Assembly (NCBI GenBank): GCA_016788565.1
Contig: JAEUSP010000082.1
Span: 1 to 38,972, forward strand
Direction: 5' to 3'
DNA: 38,972 nt
DNA from: Chlorobiota bacterium
GTDB lineage: Bacteria > Bacteroidota > Ignavibacteria > OLB7
Shown here: positions 8,243-38,972 of the stretch, piece by piece
Layout of the letters: every line of letters starts with the position of its first letter
Numbering within the stretch: position 1 is the stretch's first letter
Translations under genes and position numbers: made by a program
The notes under the pieces: generated by a model
The model's database searches: none
Seen by the model: only the letters and a program-made list of their open reading frames with translations
Told to the model about the DNA's origin: nothing

Positions 8243-8319
8243 GCTGTTGCTACTTGTGGCTCATCTCAAGGTAGTGTGCGAAGGCGGGAAGCCGTAGAGG
8301 GGAGATCGGTGGCTTCTTG

Positions 8320-8380
8320 GTTCGGTGGCTCCGCTCATACTTCGACGTGGCTCAGCATGAGCGGAGGGCGACGTTCGATG
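8320..8380. repeat. REP-like palindromic repeat, copy 1
   Basis: This copy carries the shared core: 'CTCCGCTCAT' and 'ATGAGCGGAG' arms around an ~18-nt loop containing 'CTTCGAC', framed by 'TTCGGTGGC' on the left and 'GGGCGACGTTCG' on the right. Related copies occur at 19758, 19865, 19971, 28553 and 32587, always between genes. Confidence 0.8.
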
Positions 8381-8397
8381 AATTTTGCCCACTACCC

Positions 8398-10712: not shown

Positions 10713-12446
10713 ATGCGGATTTTCCTACGCTACGCTTCCCTTACTCTTCTTGCTTGCGGCCTTGCTTCTTGTGGTTCGGGCGATACGCCGGAATCGAAGG
10801 GGGATTCGGCTGTGCAGAATGGCGGGATCACCATGGGGGGAACGTTCCGCATGAACGAGGTGCAAGAGATCCGCACGCTGGACCCGGTGCGGATGAACGA
10901 TGCTCCATCGCACCACATCGCCCACCAGATTTACGATATGCTGGTGGATTTCGACAGCAGCCTGACGCTTCAGCCGGAGCTTGCCGAACGCTGGGAGGTC
11001 AGCCCCGACGGGCTAACCTACACCTACCACCTTCGCAAAGGGGTCATGTTCCATGACAACGCCTGCTTCCCCGGCGGAAAAGGGCGCGAGCTGAAAGCCA
11101 GCGATGTGAAGTTCACCTTCGACCGAATTCTTGATGCCCGCTCCGGAACCTTTGGCGACAGCTACTTCCGGGGCAAGGTGAAAGGGGCCACCGAATACTA
11201 CCAAGCAACCCAAAAAGGGAACGCCCCAGCCGAAGGGGTCAGCGGCTTCCGTGTGGTGGATGACTACACGTTTGCGATTGACCTTCTGAAGCCGTTTGCC
11301 GCGTTCAAATACTACCCAGCGCTCGGCTTCTGCTACATCTACCCAAAGGAAGCGGTGGAGAAATACGGGAAAGATTTCTTCCGCAATCCGGTGGGAACCG
11401 GGCCGTTCGTTTTTGAGAAATGGAGCCCGGGTCAGGAACTGACCTTGAAGAAAAACCCCAGCTACTGGGGCACCGATGCCGCAGGGAACAAACTCCCCTA
11501 CATGGATGGCTTCCGGCTCAGTTTTTTGAAAGATGAGAAGCAGCAGATTAACGAGTTCACGTCTGGGAATTTGGAGGAATCGTACCGCATCCCCAGCGAG
11601 TTTTTTGGGCAGATTATTGATGCCGCCACCGGCCAACCAACGCCGGAGTATGCGAAGTTCCGCATCCACCGCGTGCCGGCACTTTCCACACAGTTCTACG
11701 GGTTCAACACCACTGCCGCGCCGTTCAGCGATAAGCGGGTGCGCCAGGCGTTCAACTTGGCGATTGACCGGAAGAAGATCATCACTTACGTGCTGCAAGG
11801 CCAAGCCGCGGGGCCTGGGGTTCACGGCTTAGTTCCCGGCTCGATGCCTGGTTACTCAGCCGATAAGATCAAAGGCTACGACTTCGACCTGCAGAAAGCC
11901 AAATCACTCATGGCCGAAGCTGGCTTCCCGAACGGGCAAGGCTTCCCGGCAATGACGCTGAACCTGAACAGCGGCGGCGGACGCAACCAAGAAGTTGCCG
12001 AAGCAATGACCGAGATGCTGAACAAAGGGCTGGGGATCAACGTGACGATGCAGATTCTGGAATGGCCGCAACACCAGGAGCTGTTGGAAACCGGAAAAGC
12101 CCCCTTCTGGCGGCTTGGCTGGATTACCGATTATCCCGACCCAGAAAATTTCCTGAACCTGTTCTACGGGCCAAATATCCCCGCAAGCGGCCCATCGCCA
12201 ATTAACTCAACACGCTACGCCAACCCAACGTTCGATTCGCTGTTCGCGATTGCCCTGGGCACCCAGGACGACGCGCAGCGAATGGCACTCTACGCCCAAG
12301 CCGAGCAAATAGCGATTGATGACGCGCCGATGATTATGATCTATCATGACCTGGATTACCGCCTTGTGCAGCCCTGGGTTCACAACTACAGCAGCAACCC
12401 GATGGATCGCCGCGACTTCAAAGCGGTCTGGCTTGCCAAACACTAA
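10713..12446 (+). CDS. Peptide-type ABC solute-binding lipoprotein (SBP family 5), 577 aa
   Basis: A lipoprotein signal with lipobox 'LASC' (Cys20) opens the protein. The mature part matches the family-5 extracellular solute-binding (oligopeptide/DppA-like) pattern: 'IRTLDPVRMND', 'LAERWEVSPDGLTYTYHLRKGVMFHD', 'ASDVKFTFDRIL', 'NPVGTGPFVFEKW', 'RQAFNLAIDRKKI' and 'GWITDYPDPENFL'. Members capture peptides, nickel or other small ligands for an ABC importer. No permease or ATPase gene is adjacent, so the cognate transporter must be elsewhere, or the protein acts alone. A paralogue starts 51 bp downstream, probably in the same transcript. The start at 10713 is set by the signal peptide. The ligand cannot be told from the sequence. 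Confidence 0.9.
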   Translation: MRIFLRYASLTLLACGLASCGSGDTPESKGDSAVQNGGITMGGTFRMNEVQEIRTLDPVRMNDAPSHHIAHQIYDMLVDFDSSLTLQPELAERWEVSPDGLTYTYHLRKGVMFHDNACFPGGKGRELKASDVKFTFDRILDARSGTFGDSYFRGKVKGATEYYQATQKGNAPAEGVSGFRVVDDYTFAIDLLKPFAAFKYYPALGFCYIYPKEAVEKYGKDFFRNPVGTGPFVFEKWSPGQELTLKKNPSYWGTDAAGNKLPYMDGFRLSFLKDEKQQINEFTSGNLEESYRIPSEFFGQIIDAATGQPTPEYAKFRIHRVPALSTQFYGFNTTAAPFSDKRVRQAFNLAIDRKKIITYVLQGQAAGPGVHGLVPGSMPGYSADKIKGYDFDLQKAKSLMAEAGFPNGQGFPAMTLNLNSGGGRNQEVAEAMTEMLNKGLGINVTMQILEWPQHQELLETGKAPFWRLGWITDYPDPENFLNLFYGPNIPASGPSPINSTRYANPTFDSLFAIALGTQDDAQRMALYAQAEQIAIDDAPMIMIYHDLDYRLVQPWVHNYSSNPMDRRDFKAVWLAKH

Positions 12447-12497
12447 GCCATTGCTGCTAACAATCCCAACTCTGCACGAAGAACAATCCATTCCTGA

Positions 12498-14204
12498 ATG
12501 ACCGTGAAGCTCTGCCGCTCTTTGACATTGTTCCTGATTGCCACGCTTGGCATTGCCCTGGGCGTTAGCAGTTGTGGTGGTGATGCGCCGCGCAGCGGAA
12601 ACGTTTTTTACTACAACGAGCAGGACGGCCTAACAACGCTGGACCCCGCACGGATTGGCGCACGCGCAAGCGGTTGGATTGGCGCGCAGATATTCTCCGG
12701 ATTGGTCACGCTGGACACCGCGCTTCGGCCAGCACCGCAGCTTGCCAAAAACTGGAGCGTGAGCGACGATGGATTGCGCTGGACCTTCCACCTGCGGGGC
12801 GATGCCCGATTTACGGATGACCCCTGCTTCCCCAACGGCAAAGGCCGCACGGTGACAGCCCAGGATGTTCGCTACAGCTTCGAGCGGGTCTGCTCGCCGG
12901 AATCAAAATCCACCGGCGCGTGGGTGTTCCGCGATAAAGTGAAAGGGGCCGCAGCGTTCATTGATGCCGAACCGGGGAAACGCCCCGAGCATATCGAAGG
13001 CTTCCGGGTGGTGAACGATTCCACGCTGGAGATTGAGCTGAACCAGCCGTTCGCTCCGTTCCTCACTCTGCTCTCGATCCCCTACGCCTACGTTGTCCCG
13101 CGTGAAGCGGTGGAGAAATATGGCGAAGATTTTTTCCGGCATCCGGTTGGCTCGGGGCCGTTCAAGCTGAAAGAGTGGAACACGGACCTTTTGTTGACGC
13201 TGGAGCGGAACCCGAACTACTTCGAGCGTGACGCCGAAGGGAAGCAGCTTCCCTACCTTGATGGAGTTCAGATTTCGTTCATCAAGGATATCAACACCGA
13301 GTTTGTGGAGTTCGAGCAGGGGAATTTAGACATGGTTGCCAGCATCGCTCCAACCCGTGTGGATGTGATCCTTTCGGAAGATGGGATGCGGCTGAAAGAA
13401 GGCTATCAGCAGTTCCGCTACTTCCGTGTGCCGGCACTTTCCACCGAGTACTACGGCTTCCAGCTGGACTCCGCCAGCGAAGGTGGCAAAGGAAGTCCGA
13501 TGGCAACAAACCGCTATCTGCGGTTGGCCTTGAATTACGGGATTGACCGCGAGGCAATAATCAAATACGTGCTGAAGGGGCAAGCAATGGCTGGGAAGCA
13601 TGGGCCAATCCCCCCCGGCGCGCCAGGGTTCAGCGGAGTTGAGGGATACCGTTACGACCGTGAGTTGGCCAAGCGGCTGTTGGATTCGGCAGGGTTCCCC
13701 GGCGGCAAGGGGCTTCCCCCCATCCTTCTGCAGACAGGAACAAACGAGCGGACCGCATCGGTGGCCGAAGCAGTGATTGAGCAGTTGAAAGCGATTGGCG
13801 TGACGGTGACAACCAAGCAAGTGGAGTTCGCGCAGCTTCGCGAGATGTACAAGTCGGCAAAAATTCCCTTCTGGCGGGCAAGCTGGATTGCTGATTATCC
13901 CGACGGCGAAAATTTTATGGCGTTATTCTACAGCCCGTTCATCGAACACCAGGGGCCGAACACAACGCACTACCGGAATCCAGCGGTGGATTCCCTGTAC
14001 CGGCAAGCGCTTGATCCGCATCTAACAACGGAGCAGCGCGCAGCCATCTACTCCAAGGCCGAGCGGATCATTCTTGATGATGCCCCTTGGGTTATCCTCT
14101 CCTACAGCATCCTGCAACGGCTTTCGCAGCCGTGGATCGCAGGCTACACCGTTGATCCACTGGATCGGCTGGTTCTAACAACGGTTCGTAAACAACAGTC
14201 CTAA
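12498..14204 (+). CDS. Peptide-type ABC solute-binding lipoprotein (SBP family 5), paralogue, 568 aa
   Basis: A second family-5 solute-binding lipoprotein (lipobox 'VSSC', Cys26). It shares the same landmarks as the preceding gene in the same order: 'LTTLDPARIGA', 'LAKNWSVSDDGLRWTFHLRG', 'AQDVRYSFERV', 'HPVGSGPFKLKEW', 'ALNYGIDREAI' and 'ASWIADYPDGENFM'. The two clearly arose by tandem duplication but have diverged widely, suggesting different ligands. No clear ribosome-binding site precedes the ATG. It is followed after 32 bp by the NlpC/P60 gene, so the three may form an operon linking peptide capture with cell-wall turnover; that link is inference only. Confidence 0.9.
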   Translation: MTVKLCRSLTLFLIATLGIALGVSSCGGDAPRSGNVFYYNEQDGLTTLDPARIGARASGWIGAQIFSGLVTLDTALRPAPQLAKNWSVSDDGLRWTFHLRGDARFTDDPCFPNGKGRTVTAQDVRYSFERVCSPESKSTGAWVFRDKVKGAAAFIDAEPGKRPEHIEGFRVVNDSTLEIELNQPFAPFLTLLSIPYAYVVPREAVEKYGEDFFRHPVGSGPFKLKEWNTDLLLTLERNPNYFERDAEGKQLPYLDGVQISFIKDINTEFVEFEQGNLDMVASIAPTRVDVILSEDGMRLKEGYQQFRYFRVPALSTEYYGFQLDSASEGGKGSPMATNRYLRLALNYGIDREAIIKYVLKGQAMAGKHGPIPPGAPGFSGVEGYRYDRELAKRLLDSAGFPGGKGLPPILLQTGTNERTASVAEAVIEQLKAIGVTVTTKQVEFAQLREMYKSAKIPFWRASWIADYPDGENFMALFYSPFIEHQGPNTTHYRNPAVDSLYRQALDPHLTTEQRAAIYSKAERIILDDAPWVILSYSILQRLSQPWIAGYTVDPLDRLVLTTVRKQQS

Positions 14205-14225
14205 ACTCAATATCCACTCGAAATC

Positions 14226-14233
14226 ACGGAGGA
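14226..14233 (+). promoter_or_regulatory. Strong ribosome-binding site that fixes a GTG start
   Basis: ACGGAGGA ends a few bases before the GTG at 14237. It supports the GTG as the true start of the NlpC/P60 gene, in a window where many genes lack a clear Shine-Dalgarno. Confidence 0.75.
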
Positions 14234-14236
14234 CAC

Positions 14237-15250
14237 GTGACGAGAATCCTGCAACGGATTACCATTCTTGCGTTGCTTGCAGCCATGCTGCTTGCCCTTG
14301 CGCCTGCTGCCGATAACGGTTCAGCGGCATACGCAAAGGCACGCAAACCAGCGTCGGCAAAGGTGAGCAAGGGGAAAAAACCAGCGAAGGTTGCCAAAGC
14401 CACCAAAAAGAAAAAAGGCCGCTACGCCAAGAAGTCGCGCCGCCACTACCGCCGCACCTACACACTGCGCGGCAATCCAGAAGTTACCCGCCGCGTGGCA
14501 AGCCAACTTCTGATGGAGAAGTTGCCAGAGCTTGCAGTGCTGGTTGATTTGCCAGTCGCATCACCAGTCGGGACCGAGCCGGTTCCGGTCCAGGCTCCGG
14601 CACAGCCAATCCAAACCGACCTGAGCAGTGGGCTGCGCTACGTCAACGGCAATGCCTATCAAGACTCTGAGCTTGACGAGCAGGAAGATCCCGACGGCAT
14701 TTCCGAAGCAGATGAGGAAGAGTTGGAGGAAATTCCCGACGACATCAACTACTTCTACAAGGAGTTCACCACCTACATGGCCTCGCTGAACGGAAGCGGC
14801 GAATCGCTGGTGACGTACAACGGAGCCGACAAGCAGACGCTGATGGAAGCACTGGTGGATTGGCTGGGAACCCGCTACCTGTTCGGTGGTGTCACCCGCA
14901 CCGGGATTGACTGCTCGGCCTTCACCGGAATGATGTACCGCTCGCTGAACTACAAGCTGCCACGCACCGCCGCAATGCAATGGGGCGTTGGGCTTCCGGT
15001 TGACCGGAACGAGCTTCAGTTTGGCGATCTTGTGTTCTTCAACACCCGCTCGGCTGTTTATGTCTCGCACGTGGGAATGTACTTGGGGAACGGGATGTTT
15101 GCCCACGCTTCCAGCCGCAACGGCGTAACGGTAAGCTCGCTGGAAGCCGATTACTACAGCAGCCACTACATCGGTGGCCGCCGCTACGATTTCAACAGCG
15201 TTGCCACCACGGCATCGCTGGAATCGGGGAAGGGGAACTCGCTTCAGTAA
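14237..15250 (+). CDS. NlpC/P60-family cell-wall peptidase, 337 aa
   Basis: A signal peptide (residues ~1-30) is followed by a very basic Lys/Ala/Arg segment (31-75), a Pro-rich linker, and an acidic stretch of Asp/Glu at 142-170. The C-terminal NlpC/P60 domain covers ~195-325. The catalytic triad is visible: Cys226 in 'GIDCSAF', His278 in 'SHVGMYLG' and His290 in 'MFAHASS'. The family cleaves peptide stems of peptidoglycan (typically gamma-D-Glu to diamino acid bonds) in the periplasm. The basic N-terminal tract could bind the wall or other polyanions; this is inference. The GTG start has an excellent ribosome-binding site. A terminator follows at 15292. Confidence 0.9.
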   Translation: MTRILQRITILALLAAMLLALAPAADNGSAAYAKARKPASAKVSKGKKPAKVAKATKKKKGRYAKKSRRHYRRTYTLRGNPEVTRRVASQLLMEKLPELAVLVDLPVASPVGTEPVPVQAPAQPIQTDLSSGLRYVNGNAYQDSELDEQEDPDGISEADEEELEEIPDDINYFYKEFTTYMASLNGSGESLVTYNGADKQTLMEALVDWLGTRYLFGGVTRTGIDCSAFTGMMYRSLNYKLPRTAAMQWGVGLPVDRNELQFGDLVFFNTRSAVYVSHVGMYLGNGMFAHASSRNGVTVSSLEADYYSSHYIGGRRYDFNSVATTASLESGKGNSLQ

Positions 15251-15291
15251 GCCCGGCTTTGGGCGGCCATAGATTTTATGCTTGGAACCAT

Positions 15292-15323
15292 AAAAAAAGC
15301 ACGATTCATCATCGTGCTTTTTT
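15292..15323 (+). terminator. Intrinsic terminator (possibly bidirectional)
   Basis: A stem of about 13 bp reads A-run, 'GCACGAT', a 5-nt loop, 'ATCGTGC', T-run. It lies 40 bp after the NlpC/P60 stop. The A-run on the left and T-run on the right would allow termination in both directions. Confidence 0.9.
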
Positions 15324-15462
15324 ATTGGCAATAATCTTGCCTCACCAAGCATTTGCTGTTGGGTTAGCACTCTCATCGGAAGAGTGACAAGGCTAGTCCC
15401 TGCAACTATTGCAACTTGGATTGGATAGTCATCTTAACGTCATTTACCTACAAGACCATGCT

Positions 15463-16176
15463 ATGGCTATAATTAGGATACCTCCGTCCACTAAACGGGG
15501 CTTACTGAAGGCACTTCAACTTGATGATGCAGCATTCGAAGCATTCGTTTCGGCGGTGAACAGTGTGCCGATGTCTCTGATGGATAGAGATTTTCCCGAG
15601 CAGTTGTCTGCCAAGATTCAGGAAATGGGTGTTTTGAGCTTATCACCTACTGTGTGTGCAGATATATTGACGACAATGTTGTCGCTCTATCGTTTTCGAT
15701 CGGAGGAAGAATGCTCTGTTGATGATATGGCCGCACGTATTATAGCCTCGATAGAGCCAAGTGCTGACACGAATTCCACCTACAATGAAGTGATCGAGAG
15801 ATTGAAAAGCGGCTTGGACAGCAAACTCAAAGGTCATCTATTACGATTACTTAGTATCAGGCCATTCGAGAACTGGGCAAAGGCAGATACATTACTACAT
15901 GAACATGGGCACATCTTTCACACAGCGCGCATTCTCACTGACATTCGCCCAGTTTTTGATGAAACCGCTGAAGAATTAGTGGGTGCTGTGATCGTGCATA
16001 TGCTAAAAATTCGACATTCGGAAAACAGAGAAATCAAAGAATTTTATGTGGCACTTGATACACAAGATATTGACGACCTTCGCAATACCCTAGACCGTGC
16101 TAGTAAAAAAGCTGAACGGCTGAAGGCTATGCTTTCAGCCTCTAATACTCCTTACTATTATCCAGAAGAGAAATAA
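15463..16176 (+). CDS. Uncharacterised protein, first gene of a three-gene operon, 237 aa
   Basis: The protein is mostly alpha-helical by inspection. The N-terminal half is leucine-rich and helical. The C-terminal half holds 'LLHEHGHIFHTARILTDIRPVFDETAEELVGAVIVHMLKI' (in pieces: HEHGH, 'ILTDIRPVF', 'AVIVHMLKI'), then 'EFYVALDTQDIDDLRNTLDRASKKAERLKAML', a likely coiled helix. From memory this resembles a widespread uncharacterised family with a conserved ILTDIRPVF segment; I could not verify it. The HEHGH cluster could bind a metal, but it lacks a full zincin HExxH. I start at ATG 15463, since the upstream in-frame start would be a rare TTG. The next gene begins 2 bp after the stop. A+T content and codon use differ from the neighbours, suggesting transfer. 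Confidence 0.72.
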   Translation: MAIIRIPPSTKRGLLKALQLDDAAFEAFVSAVNSVPMSLMDRDFPEQLSAKIQEMGVLSLSPTVCADILTTMLSLYRFRSEEECSVDDMAARIIASIEPSADTNSTYNEVIERLKSGLDSKLKGHLLRLLSIRPFENWAKADTLLHEHGHIFHTARILTDIRPVFDETAEELVGAVIVHMLKIRHSENREIKEFYVALDTQDIDDLRNTLDRASKKAERLKAMLSASNTPYYYPEEK

Positions 16177-16178
16177 AA

Positions 16179-16664
16179 ATGAAACTTAACAGAGCCTGGG
16201 GAGGCTGCGACGAAATTTATCCATACACTGAAGATGATTCAGCAGGCTCTGAGGAATTGGTTCGCTTTAGATGGAACGACTCTATTGTTGTCAATGAAGA
16301 TGGCGATAGGCTTCCTCCCGTCAGCAAGCGAATTCAATTTCCACCTATCACATATCTTTCCAGTGTTCGATTGGTCGTTGAAAAACCATTTCGTGAGCTT
16401 GCTCAGCAATGGCAGAAAGACACGGGTGGTATGTCGTTGATGACTCAGCGCGCTATACATCCAGCCTATCAACGAATTATCGGTATGGGGAAAGAAGTTA
16501 TTGTTCTTCTGTTGCAAGAGTTGCAAAACGATCCCGATGATTGGTTTTGGGCTCTTGAAGCTATCACCGGAGTACGCCCAACAAAACCTGAAGACGCAGG
16601 GGATTTAGATATGATGGCTCAATCTTGGATTCAATGGGGCAAAGACAATAATTACATTGTATGA
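16179..16664 (+). CDS. Uncharacterised protein, second gene of a three-gene operon, 161 aa
   Basis: A soluble protein. Its N-terminal ~70 residues include 'RFRWNDSIVVNEDGDRLPP', and its C-terminal half carries 'YQRIIGMGKEVIVLLLQEL', 'DDWFWALEAITGVRP' and 'MAQSWIQWGKDNNYIV'. From memory the latter half resembles a common uncharacterised bacterial family that often sits beside the type of protein encoded by the next gene. I know of no assigned function. It has no signal peptide or membrane segment. Its last four bases overlap the start of the next gene (ATGA), which implies translational coupling. The helical repeat-like C-terminus could be a protein-binding module; that is a guess. Confidence 0.75.
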   Translation: MKLNRAWGGCDEIYPYTEDDSAGSEELVRFRWNDSIVVNEDGDRLPPVSKRIQFPPITYLSSVRLVVEKPFRELAQQWQKDTGGMSLMTQRAIHPAYQRIIGMGKEVIVLLLQELQNDPDDWFWALEAITGVRPTKPEDAGDLDMMAQSWIQWGKDNNYIV

Positions 16665-17143
16665 GTCGAAATCTTGCCAATGATAGAATTGAAGGACTGG
16701 GCTTGCGTAATCTCAGACAAGATGTTTACCAAGTTACCAGCGAAGAGAATAGACGATATAATTGTTTTGCGTGGGCTGCTGGTGATGTCCGCAGGCGTTG
16801 GGAACCCGATTTACGTGGCGAACGTTTTTGGCCGATAGCCCAAAGAGAATATACACTCGAATGTTATGTAGAAGCATTCAAGACACTAGGATATCAACCA
16901 TGTAGTACGGGTGATTTCGAAGAAGGATATCAGAAAGTGGTGATATATGCAGATCGCAATCTCCCTGCTCACATGGCACGCCAGTTGGAATCAGGTCGTT
17001 GGACAAGTAAACTTGGTAATTGGGAAGATATTCGACATGAAACTCCCGAAGTGGTCGAAGGAACCGAATATGGGAAGGTAGCGCAATTTCTTAAACGCCG
17101 CCGAACCGAACCCGATCCCGAACCCCCTCTACCAATATCATAA
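16661..17143 (+). CDS. Uncharacterised protein resembling the DUF7689 family, possible papain-like fold, 160 aa
   Basis: Landmarks are 'RRYNCFAWAAGD' (Cys35), 'TLECYVEAFKTLGYQPC', 'GYQKVVIYAD', 'PAHMARQLESGRWTSKLGNW' (His104) and 'EDIRHE' (His126). The order Cys then His, each in a hydrophobic strand or helix setting, with the 'G.WTSKLG' segment, recalls NlpC/P60 or CHAP-type cysteine peptidases and amidases. The overall pattern matches what I recall of DUF7689. The function is unproven. There is no signal peptide, so any activity would be cytoplasmic. The gene overlaps the previous one by 4 bp and is followed by a strong terminator, so the three genes form a closed unit. The C-terminal ~15 residues are a disordered basic/acidic/Pro tail. 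Confidence 0.75.
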   Translation: MSRNLANDRIEGLGLRNLRQDVYQVTSEENRRYNCFAWAAGDVRRRWEPDLRGERFWPIAQREYTLECYVEAFKTLGYQPCSTGDFEEGYQKVVIYADRNLPAHMARQLESGRWTSKLGNWEDIRHETPEVVEGTEYGKVAQFLKRRRTEPDPEPPLPIS

Positions 17144-17159
17144 GATGAGCTAAACAACA

Positions 17160-17194
17160 AAGAAGGGACACGGCTAATCGCCGTGTCCCTTCTT
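17160..17194 (+). terminator. Strong hairpin closing the three-gene operon
   Basis: A perfect 15-bp stem (17160-17174 with 17180-17194) and 5-nt loop lie 16 bp after the stop. The right arm ends in CTTCTT rather than a pure T-run. Confidence 0.85.
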
Positions 17195-17200
17195 CCGTTC

Positions 17201-17339
17201 TCTGCTTCCACCAGCCTAACTTCCCAGAACCACCATCCCCATCCGGTGCATCATCTGGTGCAGTTTTGGGGTTGCAACGGCGCGGGCTTGTTCGGCTCCG
17301 CGCGCCAGCAGGCGGTCAAGTTCGGCGGGGTCCTGCATG
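17201..17339 (-). pseudogene. 139-bp exact duplicate of the trpS 3' end
   Basis: This stretch is identical, base for base as far as I can read, to 25507-25645. It encodes the last 40 residues of TrpS (from 'MQDPAELDRLL' to 'MVVLGS') plus the stop and 15 bp beyond. Upstream of the fragment the frame continues into unrelated sequence (to about 17401), so it cannot make a synthetase. It lies immediately right of the three-gene operon's terminator. The two copies are direct repeats 8306 bp apart, framing the XRE gene and two T9SS genes. They may mark an insertion or a recombination event. Confidence 0.9.
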
Positions 17340-17471: not shown

Positions 17472-17747
17472 CTAACGATGGTTGTTTAACCAATCATCAA
17501 TTTCTTGAACAAGTTGGGCCGGAGGAATGCCGAAGCGTTGGGCAAACAGGAAGACCGTTGTGAGGGAAGGACGGCGTAGCCCGCGTTCCATCAACGAAAG
17601 GAAAGTACGATCAAGCCCAGTCTGGAGCGCAAGTTCTTCTTGAGACCACTGATGAGCGCGGCGATGAGTACGCAAAATTTCAGCGAAGGCTTGCTCCAAA
17701 CCGGGGATCCGAATCTCGTCATGGTGTTTGGGATTGGCCGATTTCAT
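17472..17747 (-). CDS. XRE-family helix-turn-helix regulator
   Basis: A small cytoplasmic DNA-binding protein of 91 aa. 'WSQEELALQTGLDRTFLSLMERG' followed by 'RRPSLTTVFLFAQRFGIPP' is a clear Cro/C1-type HTH of five helices. The Met at 17747 gives the usual length; the frame stays open to an ATG at 17822 (116 aa), which cannot be excluded. It is transcribed away from the T9SS gene at 17964, so it could regulate that gene or itself through the 140-bp shared region. Similar small XRE proteins act as antitoxins, restriction controllers or element repressors. No toxin partner is adjacent. Given the flanking trpS repeat it may be a leftover regulator of a mobile element. Confidence 0.82.
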   Translation of the reverse strand: MKSANPKHHDEIRIPGLEQAFAEILRTHRRAHQWSQEELALQTGLDRTFLSLMERGLRRPSLTTVFLFAQRFGIPPAQLVQEIDDWLNNHR

Positions 17748-17963
17748 CGGCGGAGAAGATGAACGCAGGTAACAGAAATAACCGAAGACTTTTGTACTTT
17801 TTTTCCACTTGAAGTCGTACATTGTGGACAGCCGTTAGAAACAGAATTAGAAGGAGAAATTTTTGGAGAGGGTGAGAACAATAGCCCCAAACGTTGTCTT
17901 TATCAGGTACGCCAATTCGCGTAAGTTCCTGCAGAGTGACAATCACTTTTCAATGATGAACCA

Positions 17964-19628: not shown

Positions 19629-19757
19629 GGCTTCCTTGTTCGGTGGCTCCTGCCAGCCCTCACCCCCCGCCCTCTCCCAATCGGGTAGAGGTGCTGGTTG
19701 CCTCACATTGGTCGGGTGGGAGAGGGAGCCAAAGCCGGGGAGAAGAGCAGGGCTTGG

Positions 19758-19834
19758 TTCGGTGGCTCCGCTCATACTTCGATGCTTCGACAGGCTCAGC
19801 ACTCAGCATGAGCGGAGGGCGGCGTTCGGTGAAG
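19758..19834. repeat. REP-like palindromic repeat, copy 2 (expanded loop)
   Basis: Same arms as copy 1, but the loop carries an extra 'GCTTCGACAGGCTCAGCA'-like insertion (partial duplication of the loop). It is followed by a 'GATTCTTCATTCGGCATTCGG' heptamer-like tract, given here as motif names only. Confidence 0.75.
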
Positions 19835-19864
19835 GCTCCGATTCTTCATTCGGCATTCGGCATT

Positions 19865-19926
19865 CCGGTGGCTCCGCTCATACTTCGACGGGGCTCAGCA
19901 TGAGCGGAGGGCGGCGTTCGGTGAAG
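19865..19926. repeat. REP-like palindromic repeat, copy 3
   Basis: Complete unit with perfect 10-nt arms, the 'CTTCGACGGGGCTCAG' loop and the flanking 'GGGCGGCGTTCGGTGAAG'. Nearly identical to copy 4. Confidence 0.8.
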
Positions 19927-19970
19927 ACTCCGATTCTTCATTCGGCATTCTTCATTCGGCATTCGACATT

Positions 19971-20032
19971 CCGGTGGCTCCGCTCATACTTCGACGGGGC
20001 TCAGCATGAGCGGAGGGCGGCGTTCGGTGGTG
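19971..20032. repeat. REP-like palindromic repeat, copy 4
   Basis: Complete unit nearly identical to copy 3, followed by a partial right-hand half unit at about 20039-20065 and a heptamer-like tract to about 20125. Confidence 0.8.
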
Positions 20033-20185
20033 GTCGGAGCTGAGCGGAGGGCGATGTTCGGTGAAGGCTCCGATTCTTCATTCGGCATTCGGCATTCGAC
20101 ATTCGGCATTCAACATTCGACACTTCGATCAATCCAAGCCATCGCTCGCGGTGGCATCCTCAATACTCTTTCATGGAGAATCACC

Positions 20186-25506: not shown

Positions 25507-25645
25507 TCTGCTTCCACCAGCCTAACTTCCCAGAACCACCATCCCCATCCGGTGCATCATCTGGTGCAGTTTTGGGGTTGCAACGGCGCGGGCTTGTTCG
25601 GCTCCGCGCGCCAGCAGGCGGTCAAGTTCGGCGGGGTCCTGCATG
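25507..25645. repeat. Right copy of the 139-bp direct repeat
   Basis: This copy covers the intact trpS 3' end plus 15 bp downstream. It is identical to 17201-17339, and sequence on both sides differs between the copies. Confidence 0.9.
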
Positions 25646-26631
25646 AACTGTTGGTAGCGTTGGCGCACCGGCGTTAGCTCGGCAATCACCGCTTCGGCCA
25701 CCTTCAACTTCAAATCGCCGTAGCCGCGTGCGTTGGCAAAATCCAACTCCACCTGCTGGGTAGTGCGCCCGGTGATTGCACGGTAGATCGTGAGCAAGTT
25801 GTTCACCCCTGCGCGCTCTGGGTTTTCGGAGAAACGAATTTCGCCCGATGAATCCGTCACCGCACGTTTGAACGAGCGTTCGATTTCGGCAGGATCATCC
25901 AACAACCCAACGGCATGGCCCCGCACGCTGCTGGCACTTTTGGACATCTTGCTGGTGGGGTCATCCAGCCCCATAATCCGTGCCCCAACGGTTGGGATCA
26001 CCGGATCGGGAATCACAAACGTTGGCCCATCTTGGCCATACAACCTGTTGAACCGCTCGGCAATGTTGCGGGTTAGCTCAACGTGCTGTTTTTGGTCTTC
26101 CCCCACCGGAACCTGGTCGGCATCGTACAGCAGAATATCGGCAGCTTGCAGCACCGGGTAATCCAGCAATCCGGTGGAGACCGATTCCTGCTTGGCCGAT
26201 TTATCTTTGAACTGCGTCATCTTCTGCAACCAGCCAAGCGGGGTGATGCAGTTCAGCAACCAGCAGGCTTCGGCGTGCGCGCTGACGTGGCTTTGGATAA
26301 ACAGCGTGCTGCGGTCGGGATCAATCCCCGAAGCCAGATAGACCGCCGCAAGCGACCGGGTCCGTTTCCGCAGATCATCGGGGTCCTGGTGGATTGTCAC
26401 CGAGTGGAGGTCAACGATGCAGAAGAAGTTGATGCTTCCACTATCCTGCATCTGCACCCAACGCTTCACCGCGCCGATGTAGTTGCCCAAGTGTGGTTCG
26501 CCGGTTGGCTGCATTCCGCTGAACACCCGTTGTGGGCGGCCCAAGTCAGCCGCCGCTGGCGCGATTGAGTCTGTGATTGAGTCTGGTGTTGGCTGGGCCA
26601 CCGAGGCCAAGCCTTCTGCGTCTATTTCCAT
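25522..26631 (-). CDS. trpS: Tryptophanyl-tRNA synthetase, 369 aa
   Basis: Class I synthetase that charges tRNA-Trp with tryptophan in the cytoplasm. The HIGH-type motif is 'PTGEPHLGN' (His47, Asn50) and the KMSKS loop is at 228-232, both intact. 'GEDQKQHVELTRNIAERFN' is typical TrpRS. An N-terminal extension of about 30 residues precedes the usual start of the family near 'RVFSGMQPTG'. No clear ribosome-binding site precedes the ATG at 26631, and no better internal start exists before the catalytic core. Its last 40 codons are duplicated at 17201-17339. Essential and not in an obvious operon; the DinB-like gene lies 54 bp upstream of it. Confidence 0.97.
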   Translation of the reverse strand: MEIDAEGLASVAQPTPDSITDSIAPAAADLGRPQRVFSGMQPTGEPHLGNYIGAVKRWVQMQDSGSINFFCIVDLHSVTIHQDPDDLRKRTRSLAAVYLASGIDPDRSTLFIQSHVSAHAEACWLLNCITPLGWLQKMTQFKDKSAKQESVSTGLLDYPVLQAADILLYDADQVPVGEDQKQHVELTRNIAERFNRLYGQDGPTFVIPDPVIPTVGARIMGLDDPTSKMSKSASSVRGHAVGLLDDPAEIERSFKRAVTDSSGEIRFSENPERAGVNNLLTIYRAITGRTTQQVELDFANARGYGDLKLKVAEAVIAELTPVRQRYQQFMQDPAELDRLLARGAEQARAVATPKLHQMMHRMGMVVLGS

Positions 26632-28460: not shown

Positions 28461-28655
28461 GCGGCTGCAATGTTCCGGAAATTCTGGAAGCTCACCTACA
28501 ATTTGTGTGAGAAGTGAGCAAACGGGTAGGTAGAAGATCGGCAACTTCTCGGTTCGGTGGCTCCGCTCATACTTCGACGGGGCTCAGCATGAGCGGGGAC
28601 GATGTTGGGTGGTTCGGATCATAGTTTGCACACTAACTGTAGAGGAGCGGTTCTG
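28461..28655. other. Intergenic spacer with a REP-like repeat
   Basis: About 195 bp. It holds one REP-like copy (28553-28608) and otherwise nothing I can recognise. Confidence 0.6.
28553..28608. repeat. REP-like palindromic repeat, copy 5
   Basis: Same 'TTCGGTGGCTCCGCTCAT' left half and 'CTTCGACGGGGCTCAGC' loop as copies 3 and 4, but the right arm reads 'ATGAGCGGGG', a one-base change, with a diverged right flank. Confidence 0.75.
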
Positions 28656-32048: not shown

Positions 32049-32586
32049 TGCTTCTCTCTTGATCCTTCCACGCCCGTTCCGCACGGTTGGTTGTTGGCGG
32101 CTCGGCAGGCGATGGTGTGAAGTTTGTAGTTGTTGGTTCCCCAACTCATGCTTATTAACGTTTGAACCGAGCATTCAGTGCAATCCGCCAGATCAGCATC
32201 TCCCCTTCTGCGGTCCCCGTTCAGCGATGACGTTCGGTGGTTTCTCCCCGCCGCCCCCAATCATCACGCTCCATTCTTTGGCAGGGACACAACGGGTGGG
32301 GCTTGGTAACATCGCCACAAAAAATCTTTGGATGCCCCCCCGCCAATCGCTCTTGCATCAATATACAGCCAAGCACGGCTGGGGCTTCAGAAAAAAAAAA
32401 CTTGAGGGCGAGAAATGGGGCGGGGATAGGCGAAGGGGGGGGGCAGAACTCCACCACCGTCATCGTCGCGTCATTTCTTCCGCCCACTACGGGGCTATGC
32501 AACCGAAATGTTTTCGTGATCCCCAAGGCTTACGCCATTGGGCTATGCTGGCTTCCGCCCCATTCGGGGCTTTGGTGGATTCGGGG
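32049..32586. other. Long intergenic region upstream of clpC
   Basis: About 540 bp without a convincing gene; frames here are short or run antisense into res. It must hold the clpC promoter. A homopolymer A10 (about 32391-32400) and a G-run (about 32437-32445) are visible. A stretch at about 32515-32575 ('AGGCTTACGCCATTGGGC' and 'CGCCCCATTCGGGGC') resembles an interspersed repeat I recall from unrelated genomes, but only one copy is here. Confidence 0.5.
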
Positions 32587-32650
32587 TTCGGTGGCTCCGC
32601 TTCATACTTCGACAGGCTCAGCATGAGCGGGAGGCTACATTCGCTGGAAA
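32587..32650. repeat. REP-like palindromic repeat, copy 6 (degenerate)
   Basis: It retains 'TTCGGTGGCTCCGCT' and 'CTTCGACAGGCTCAGCATGAGCGGGAG', but with a one-base insertion in the left arm and changes in the right. It abuts the heptamer array at 32658, the same pairing as at 19758-20125. Confidence 0.72.
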
Positions 32651-32657
32651 CTCCAAG

Positions 32658-32783
32658 ATTCGACATTCGACATTCGACATTCGGCATTCGACATTCGGCA
32701 TTCGACATTCGACATTCGACATTCGACATTCGACATTCGGCATTCGGCATTCGACATTCGACATTCGGCAATCGGCAATCGGC
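32658..32783. repeat. Heptanucleotide tandem array, 18 units
   Basis: Units are ATTCGAC (11), ATTCGGC (5) and AATCGGC (2), in perfect 7-bp phase over 126 bp with no indel. It resembles the short tandem heptanucleotide repeats of cyanobacteria in design, though not in sequence. Because 7 is not a multiple of 3, all six frames cycle; resulting frames full of 'RHSTFDI' or 'CRMSNVE' repeats are artefacts. It lies between clpC and res, next to REP copy 6. Confidence 0.9.
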
Positions 32784-32799
32784 AATCCAACAGTTCTGT

Positions 32800-36908: not shown

Positions 36909-37340
36909 TCAAATACATTTCACTTCCGTTGCCGGCGATAGCAGCTTGAAGATCTGCTCCACGTTAATTTTCGCCGCGCTATCCCGGAACCCCGCGTCGC
37001 GAAACACCGCACGCAAGGGCTTCCGCACGGCCAGCTCTTTCACGAATGCTTCATCCACTCCCTTGTTTGCGTCGAAACAGGCGGCCAGCGCGTTGCTATC
37101 CACAAACAATACTTCTTTGCCCTGGATATTTTCTTTCTCAATCGGCAGCGTCCGCAAACTCCAACGTGTTTTCTCCCTTCCCCGCTACTTCTTTTTGAAT
37201 TTTCTTTCCCGCCCGCCGAATCCGCTCCTTGCTTATTTCCGCAATGGTGTTGTACCCCGCTTTGTACGCCTCCGATTTTTCATCACACGCCTCCGGCAAT
37301 TGCACCATGATGAATTTCCGGTTGCCACCGTCGGCAGCAT
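36909..37340 (-). pseudogene. mod: Type III methyltransferase (mod) remnant, internally deleted and truncated
   Basis: Two mod pieces are joined out of frame. On the right, 37158-37340 (read leftwards) encodes 'ADGGNRKFIMVQLPEACDEK', then a segment with 'SEAYKAGYNTIAEISKERIRR', which is the conserved C-proximal part of type III Mod. It ends at a stop (TGA) just inside the second piece. The second piece, 36909-37150, encodes the Mod C-terminus from 'LPIEKENIQGKEVLF' to 'SPATEVKCI'. The segment that lies between them in an intact Mod (including 'AIDTSNMADIYYTPDAFK' at the right edge of this window) is missing. The right end is cut by the MITE-like element at 37341. No functional methyltransferase can be made from this piece. 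Confidence 0.85.
36911..37150 (-). repeat. Mod 3'-end repeat, copy in the remnant
   Basis: 240 bp matching 38582-38821 with about eight differences. Seven lie in one ~25-bp patch; of these only one changes the protein (Val for Ala). The eighth gives Ser for Gly in 'VDSNALAA'. Confidence 0.88.
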
Positions 37341-38579: not shown

Positions 38580-38972
38580 CTAAATACATTTCACTTCCGT
38601 TGCCGGCGATAGCAGCTTGAAGATCTGCTCCACGTTAATTTTCGCCGCGCTATCCCGGAACCCCGCGTCGCGAAATACGGCGCGCAAGGGTTTTCGTGCG
38701 GCCAGCTCTTTCACGAATGCTTCATCCACTCCCTTGTTTGCGTCGAAACAGGCGGCCAGCGCGTTGCCATCCACAAACAATACTTCTTTGCCCTGGATAT
38801 TTTCTTTCTCAATCGGCAGCGATAAATCCACCCCCCAATCCAACATCACCTGGAATAATAAATCCTCCGGCGTGCGGCCGGGCTTGATGTTATCCACAAA
38901 TAACTCCAAATCCTCCCGCTTGAACGCATCGGGGGTGTAGTAAATATCGGCCATGTTGGAGGTGTCAATCGC
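38580..38972 (-). CDS. mod: Type III DNA methyltransferase (Mod), C-terminal part only
   Basis: The frame is open to the right edge (131 codons visible before the stop). Landmarks are 'AIDTSNMADIYYTPDAFK', 'TPEDLLFQVMLDWGVDL', 'KEVLFVDGNALAACFD', 'AVFRDAGFRDSAAKINVEQIF' and the final 'SPATEVKCI'. This is the conserved C-terminus of type III Mod, an N6-adenine methyltransferase that gives site recognition to the Mod-Res complex. The catalytic motifs and target domain lie outside the window. Its last 240 bp recur at 36911-37150. It is the promoter-proximal gene of the R-M operon. Confidence 0.9.
   Translation of the reverse strand, partial: AIDTSNMADIYYTPDAFKREDLELFVDNIKPGRTPEDLLFQVMLDWGVDLSLPIEKENIQGKEVLFVDGNALAACFDANKGVDEAFVKELAARKPLRAVFRDAGFRDSAAKINVEQIFKLLSPATEVKCI
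38582..38821 (-). repeat. Mod 3'-end repeat, copy in the intact gene
   Basis: Partner of 36911-37150. The two copies stop being similar at the same base on the right, where the remnant carries its internal deletion. Confidence 0.88.

Follow-up and report, generated by a model that had tools for sequence, protein, structure and literature searches.

A putative tripartite toxin-antitoxin-like cassette headed by a bacterial COMMD-like gene, with exchangeable partner genes

The window studied here is a stretch of 38,972 nucleotides from a Chlorobiota bacterium (assembly GCA_016788565.1, contig JAEUSP010000082.1), in which positions 15463 to 17143 hold a compact operon of three genes. We interpret this operon, with a probability of roughly 60%, as a variant of a three-part modular cassette, toxin-antitoxin-like or defensive, whose scaffold gene is exchangeable. 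The case is built on the identities of the three genes, the COMMD fold of gene 1 in a predicted model, the linkage of the genes, the swapping of partner genes behind the first one and the insertion of the operon at its present site. Its parts are as follows:

15463..16176, plus strand: gene 1, COMMD-like protein of 237 aa, with a helical N-terminal domain (8-151) and a beta-beta-beta-alpha COMM-like domain (152-226)
16179..16376, plus strand: N-terminal tail of gene 2, about 66 residues, specific to the window cassette; the core match begins at residue 67
16377..16664, plus strand: conserved core of gene 2, residues 67-161 (HPAYQ..IGMG..WFWAL..ITG)
16661..17143, plus strand: gene 3, DUF7689 protein of 160 aa, probable papain-like cysteine enzyme

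Gene 1 has no match in Pfam or NCBIfam, including none to COMM_domain (PF07258); the best PF07258 score in its family, that of relative L002, is 15.1 bits (E 0.026), under the cut-off of 22.4. A phmmer search of the PDB sequences returned a single match, the COMMD-like protein 9q6a (E 2.1e-10), which family profiles of 16 and 20 sequences reach at E 1.2e-36 (full length, positions 3-218) and E 2.1e-41, respectively. This protein is MBK5214510 of Flavobacteriaceae (PDB 9q6a, 9q6c, 9q6d; 9q6a and 9q6c were released on 2025-10-01, and 9q6a is octameric according to its PDB title); it resembles gene 1 over its full length in sequence, at about 22-24% identity, and in fold. The AlphaFold model of gene 1 (pLDDT 84.9) displays eight helices (8-151), three strands (152-198) and a long helix (200-226), i.e., the all-helical N-terminal domain and the beta-beta-beta-alpha COMM domain that gene 1 has in common with the eukaryotic COMMDs of Commander/CCC. 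When the model was compared with known structures using Foldseek and VIA, 9q6a ranked first (VIA Z 12.9, root-mean-square deviation 3.4 over 210 residues). The human CCC/Commander COMMDs gave VIA Z 7.5 and 7.3 and a Foldseek probability of 1.00, with a deviation near 10 that probably reflects a different placement of the two domains, and the isolated COMM domain of COMMD9 gave VIA Z 6.9 over 77 residues. On sequence and predicted structure, gene 1 is thus a member of a bacterial COMMD-like family sharing the COMMD fold, an identity that an earlier reading of this DNA from its letters alone (the sequence-only reading) had not proposed.

The profile search of the PDB from the bacterial family reaches 9q6a and no human COMMD chain, so the link between gene 1 and the eukaryotic COMMDs rests on fold. 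The Trp of the C-terminal helix, strictly conserved in eukaryotic COMMDs (PMC10187114), is absent from all 20 bacterial relatives aligned, in which TD-RP-F of the first strand is nearly invariant and is the signature of the bacterial family. Common descent of the two groups is likely, not proved: this Trp is absent, and a single relative reaches PF07258, with a score below the cut-off. The surroundings also differ: the eukaryotic system comprises ten paralogues, CCDC22/93 and Retriever, whereas the bacterial cassette has a single COMMD-like gene, none of these components, and enzymes as partners.

Gene 3 matches PF24738 (DUF7689) over positions 1-118 of 118 (E 1.3e-34, 119.8 bits for a cut-off of 22.6), which confirms the resemblance already suspected. 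Cys35, His104, Gln108, Asp123 and His126 are invariant in 31 DUF7689 sequences; in the predicted model (pLDDT 89.8), Cys35 opens helix 35-39 and His104 lies within strand 101-108, the papain-like arrangement of a conserved Cys at a helix start and a His on a following strand. The best VIA rows are papain-like, with AvrPphB (Z 5.8) and a papain-like toxin with its immunity protein (Z 5.2), and further rows include NlpC/P60 enzymes, staphopain, and contact-dependent inhibition and type VI effectors; Foldseek gave no match under 0.1. Each of these scores is weak singly; it is their mutual agreement that counts. The predicted fold and the invariant Cys/His support the earlier papain-like guess, and gene 3 is probably a papain-like cysteine enzyme.

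The phyla in which we found COMMD-like genes are that of the window, the cyanobacteria, and those of an Acidobacteriaceae and a Phycisphaerae locus; two viral contigs carry them as well. Their distribution is sporadic (5/395, 7/244, 2/246 and 3/247 genomes), keeping in mind that few phyla were sampled and that hit rates are about 1-3%. We tabulated 20 cassettes from four phyla and the two viral contigs. In every one of them, the COMMD-like gene is at the head, and two closely linked genes follow it; genes 1 and 2 are separated by -8 to 109 bp (mostly 2 to 13), and genes 2 and 3 overlap or abut. The pairs that follow the COMMD-like gene are of different kinds:

gene 2 core and DUF7689: 8 loci
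193-259 aa protein and 126-144 aa protein: 4 loci, with a related pair in L109
161-185 aa protein and HEPN (PF05168, 1.5e-5): 4 loci
DUF4325/STAS (4e-18) and PIN-like protein: L069
151 aa protein and Fic (PF02661, 8.8e-8): L054
unnamed pair: L093

The HEPN assignment was checked in two of the four loci and lies above the Pfam cut-off in L070 and below it in L073; the third gene of L069 is PIN-like by our own reading, with no Pfam match. The DUF7689 match of L094 is split across two frames, and the forks of the COMMD tree are mostly weak. The three families of the window neighbour one another in distant phyla, a co-occurrence that the sequence-only reading had singled out as the check to make. 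Three loci were left out of the table: L076 has a single gene after the COMMD gene; in L074, the COMMD part is fused into a longer protein, followed by a retropepsin-like gene (8e-4); and in L075 (6783-7316), part of the COMMD-like helical domain is fused directly to the gene 2 core, before DUF7689, apparently in a decayed cassette.

Of 46 DUF7689 loci (genome contigs, mostly cyanobacteria), nearly all have a gene carrying the gene 2 core immediately upstream of DUF7689, and the N terminus of this gene varies with the context. Behind a COMMD gene, it begins with a variable tail roughly 50-94 residues long; by our own reading, versions away from COMMD genes are mostly short, and about 13 of them open with a ribbon-helix-helix (RHH)-like stretch. 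In L004, the N terminus is an AbrB-like domain (E 1.5e-32). This variation suggests, at the level of sequence, that gene 2 behaves as an antitoxin whose N-terminal module sets what it attaches to. The core would then be the antitoxin-like partner of DUF7689, and the tail of the window's gene 2, which we assume to be unstructured, would by analogy be a docking element for the COMMD scaffold.

The clearest exchange of partners is seen at L069, L077 and L078, all located behind psaA-psaB. L069 and L078 share 80% DNA identity over psaA, psaB and the COMMD gene up to the start of gene 2, and diverge from there. The gene 2 tail of L069 nevertheless scores 12 and 10 standard deviations above 2000 shuffles against the tails of L077 and L078, whereas the gene 2 cores and third genes are unrelated (STAS and PIN-like in L069, the gene 2-type protein P2 and DUF7689 in L077 and L078). 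These sequences indicate that a COMMD-tail unit was retained while the effector part was exchanged, as would be expected if the tail contacts the scaffold.

The first slot itself can be occupied by a second family. In L007, a TIGR04255 protein (1.1e-43) stands in front of a P2-DUF7689 pair. A search for TIGR04255 in 186 genomes of one phylum gave nine loci, five of which have a gene 2 or a gene 3 matching families of the COMMD cassettes (the HEPN pair and the 126-144 aa pair); among 1270 genes scanned, these matches are the only ones away from COMMD genes, some of them weak (E 1e-4 to 1e-3) and all obtained with profiles built from few sequences. Another TIGR04255 locus has PemK/MazF (4e-13) as its third gene, and Thermus plasmid pTB1 carries TIGR04255, then a second gene, then a HEPN-type gene. 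TIGR04255 cassettes thus have the three-gene order and the gene 2 and gene 3 families in common with the COMMD cassettes, and differ from them in a first gene from another, uncharacterised family. The window's own genome also holds, at L118 (G000:C128:3557-4306), a TIGR04255 gene with two small genes behind it, apparently a sister cassette. In L042 (6904-7521), an unnamed gene of 206 aa, possibly a third scaffold family, is separated by 5 bp from a downstream gene 2 with a long tail, which DUF7689 follows.

Within the window, a 2-bp gap separates genes 1 and 2, and genes 2 and 3 overlap by 4 bp (ATGA), an arrangement of overlapping or near-abutting neighbours typical of type II toxin-antitoxin genes. 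For gene 1, the family alignment favours a start at 15463 over the longer TTG frame from 15409. The operon has a G+C content of 0.44-0.46, or 0.32-0.41 at third codon positions, compared with 0.570 +/- 0.021 and 0.669 +/- 0.051, respectively, for the 20 other genes of the window. The spacing and the A+T-richer composition described by the sequence-only reading are therefore both borne out, as is its suggestion of a transferred unit, given the following features of the site and the joint presence of the three families in distant phyla:

15251..17155, no strand assigned: inserted segment, lacking at the orthologous junction of G296, a genome of the same genus
15293..15325, plus strand: terminator-like hairpin, bearing A/T tracts, at the 5' border of the inserted segment
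17159..17195, minus strand: hairpin terminator predating the insertion, judged from its fold and its presence in the empty site of G296

Window positions 11379-15250 and 17156-17207 align to adjoining stretches of G296:C12, with flanks at about 90% identity and no alignment between them. The empty site has 49 bp between the match to an NlpC-like gene and the match to the terminator; 1.9 kb, including the operon, is missing. No DUF7689 match was found anywhere in G296, and 3/61 relatives, window genome included, have one. With 1.9 kb missing in G296 and DUF7689 in so few relatives, either the window genome has gained the operon or, by a less simple route, G296 has lost it; base composition favours gain, and we take the operon to be a foreign insertion, a transferred bacterial cassette. 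The two strong terminators said to enclose it both fold well (-18.1 kcal/mol for 15288-15332 and -28.9 kcal/mol downstream). The 5' hairpin has no counterpart found in G296. The downstream hairpin, whose T tract is on the minus strand, is also present at the operon-free junction of G296, and is therefore part of the older boundary between genes rather than of the operon. A helix-turn-helix gene on the minus strand (17475-17822) was excluded from the unit, as it lies beyond the old terminator and within a separate insertion.

Other repeats and insertions are visible in the window. Exact direct repeats of 139 bp of the trpS 3' end (17201-17339 and 25507-25645; intact trpS at 25528-26631) bound an 8.3-kb segment absent from G296, which looks like a second, recent insertion adjoining the operon. 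A dispersed family of short repeats (8303-8382, 19753-20128, 28535-28618, 32574-32790) has many copies in G296 too, and a 240-bp repeat pair (36911-37150 and 38582-38821) shows 96.7% identity.

As for the genes that adjoin the cassettes elsewhere, an AbiH gene lies beside L091, an integrase near L092, a Schlafen-type gene beside L081, and a PLD-SNF2 helicase with a type IIG enzyme directly before L109. These neighbours, which other loci lack, and the viral contigs suggest a defence role. Plasmid and phage records gave no match for the window proteins, the COMMD proteins of L002, L056 and L053 and one type-b third gene, and the viral contigs scanned with the cyanobacterial COMMD group gave none either. 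A DUF7689 match in L082 (G101:C13:79000-94000) lies near integrase-like and long tape-measure-like genes, with no recognised gene 2 partner.

How such a cassette might work can be sketched from two sides. The COMMD ring of Commander is stabilised by unstructured stretches of CCDC22 and CCDC93 that wind their way through it (PMC10187114), which offers a model for a scaffold and a gene 2 tail. Gene 1 would be a COMMD-fold scaffold, probably ring-forming by analogy with its octameric solved relative 9q6a, and the ring would hold several gene 2-gene 3 pairs through the gene 2 tails. Gene 2 would be the adaptor/antitoxin, its variable tail docking on the scaffold and its core binding and restraining the enzyme encoded by gene 3, the effector, here papain-like; we infer these last two roles because other third-slot genes belong to toxin families. 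The scaffold would keep the pair inactive until phage infection, stress or a similar trigger sets the effector free or activates it, as in toxin-antitoxin or abortive infection systems. Type II toxin-antitoxin systems (VapBC, MazEF, HEPN-type, Fic-type) are alike in their small, tightly linked antitoxin-like and toxin-like genes, and also in that the gene 2 N terminus can be a DNA-binding domain; the window cassette differs from them in having a third, scaffold gene in first place and a tail as the N terminus of gene 2.

Several observations weigh against this interpretation. Many DUF7689 pairs occur without any scaffold gene, and the RHH_1 match in the gene 2 of L006 (E 0.0022) falls below the Pfam cut-off. 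The tail of the window's gene 2 has no detectable likeness to the L069-type tails, so that docking is an analogy for the window cassette. The papain-like likeness of gene 3 comes from a predicted fold, with each Z under 6 and weak singly, and toxicity, antitoxin action and phage protection are what we infer. PADLOC gave a weak type II restriction match for gene 1 (E 0.033) and none for genes 2 and 3; a known defence system was set aside in the lack of a confident match for the three proteins, and the defence or toxin-antitoxin role raised by the sequence-only reading keeps the indirect support of the toxin families that sister cassettes have as their third genes. Several COMMD cassettes adjoin ordinary genes (psaAB, vWA genes) and not defence genes.

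The scaffold-free pairs, which are frequent in cyanobacteria and have N termini that are short, RHH-like or AbrB-like, could also mean that gene 2 and DUF7689 form a plain two-gene toxin-antitoxin pair with a captured accessory COMMD-like gene, the scaffold merely tuning expression or stability and being dispensable for control. We regard this as unlikely, for the partner pairs found behind the scaffold, a tightly spaced gene 1, are of at least five kinds, and the same slot is also occupied by a second scaffold family. Somewhat more doubtful still is a non-toxic regulatory or metabolic complex, in which a COMMD ring would organise a protease, a nuclease or an AMPylase for protein or RNA turnover: some loci do lie beside photosystem genes, outside defence islands, and no toxicity is known for DUF7689, but HEPN, Fic, PIN-like and PemK/MazF in the third slot are typical toxin families, the distribution is sporadic and the window copy is an insertion. 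Lastly, of the strings HEHGH and ILTDIRPVF pointed out earlier in gene 1, both of them present, the former (residues 146-150) implied a zinc metalloprotease (HExxH) acting with a papain-like partner, which we reject as having next to no probability, since, in the alignment of 20, HEHGH is found in the window protein alone, none of the relatives keeping it, and the fold is that of a COMMD.

The bacterial COMMD-like fold itself is already known from the structures deposited in 2025. In the literature searched, preprints being outside the search, we found no text on bacterial COMMD, DUF7689 or TIGR04255, and no account of a bacterial COMMD linked to toxin-like genes, of tail swapping, or of TIGR04255 in the first slot. 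A bacterial COMMD-like family heading swappable enzyme cassettes gives the COMMD fold a testable bacterial function, adds a scaffold as third component to toxin-antitoxin-like modules and suggests what the uncharacterised families TIGR04255 and DUF7689 may be for. It is tempting, if speculative and on balance improbable, to see bacterial COMMD-like rings as platforms on which a widespread three-part immune or toxin-antitoxin system holds its effectors, with adaptor tails threading the ring, from which the eukaryotic COMMD ring with its CCDC22/CCDC93 linkers would have descended. The 2023 Cell paper on Commander found no COMMD homologues in Archaea or Bacteria and placed their origin in the eukaryotic stem (PMC10187114); with the bacterial family, the origin of the Commander ring becomes a direct question.
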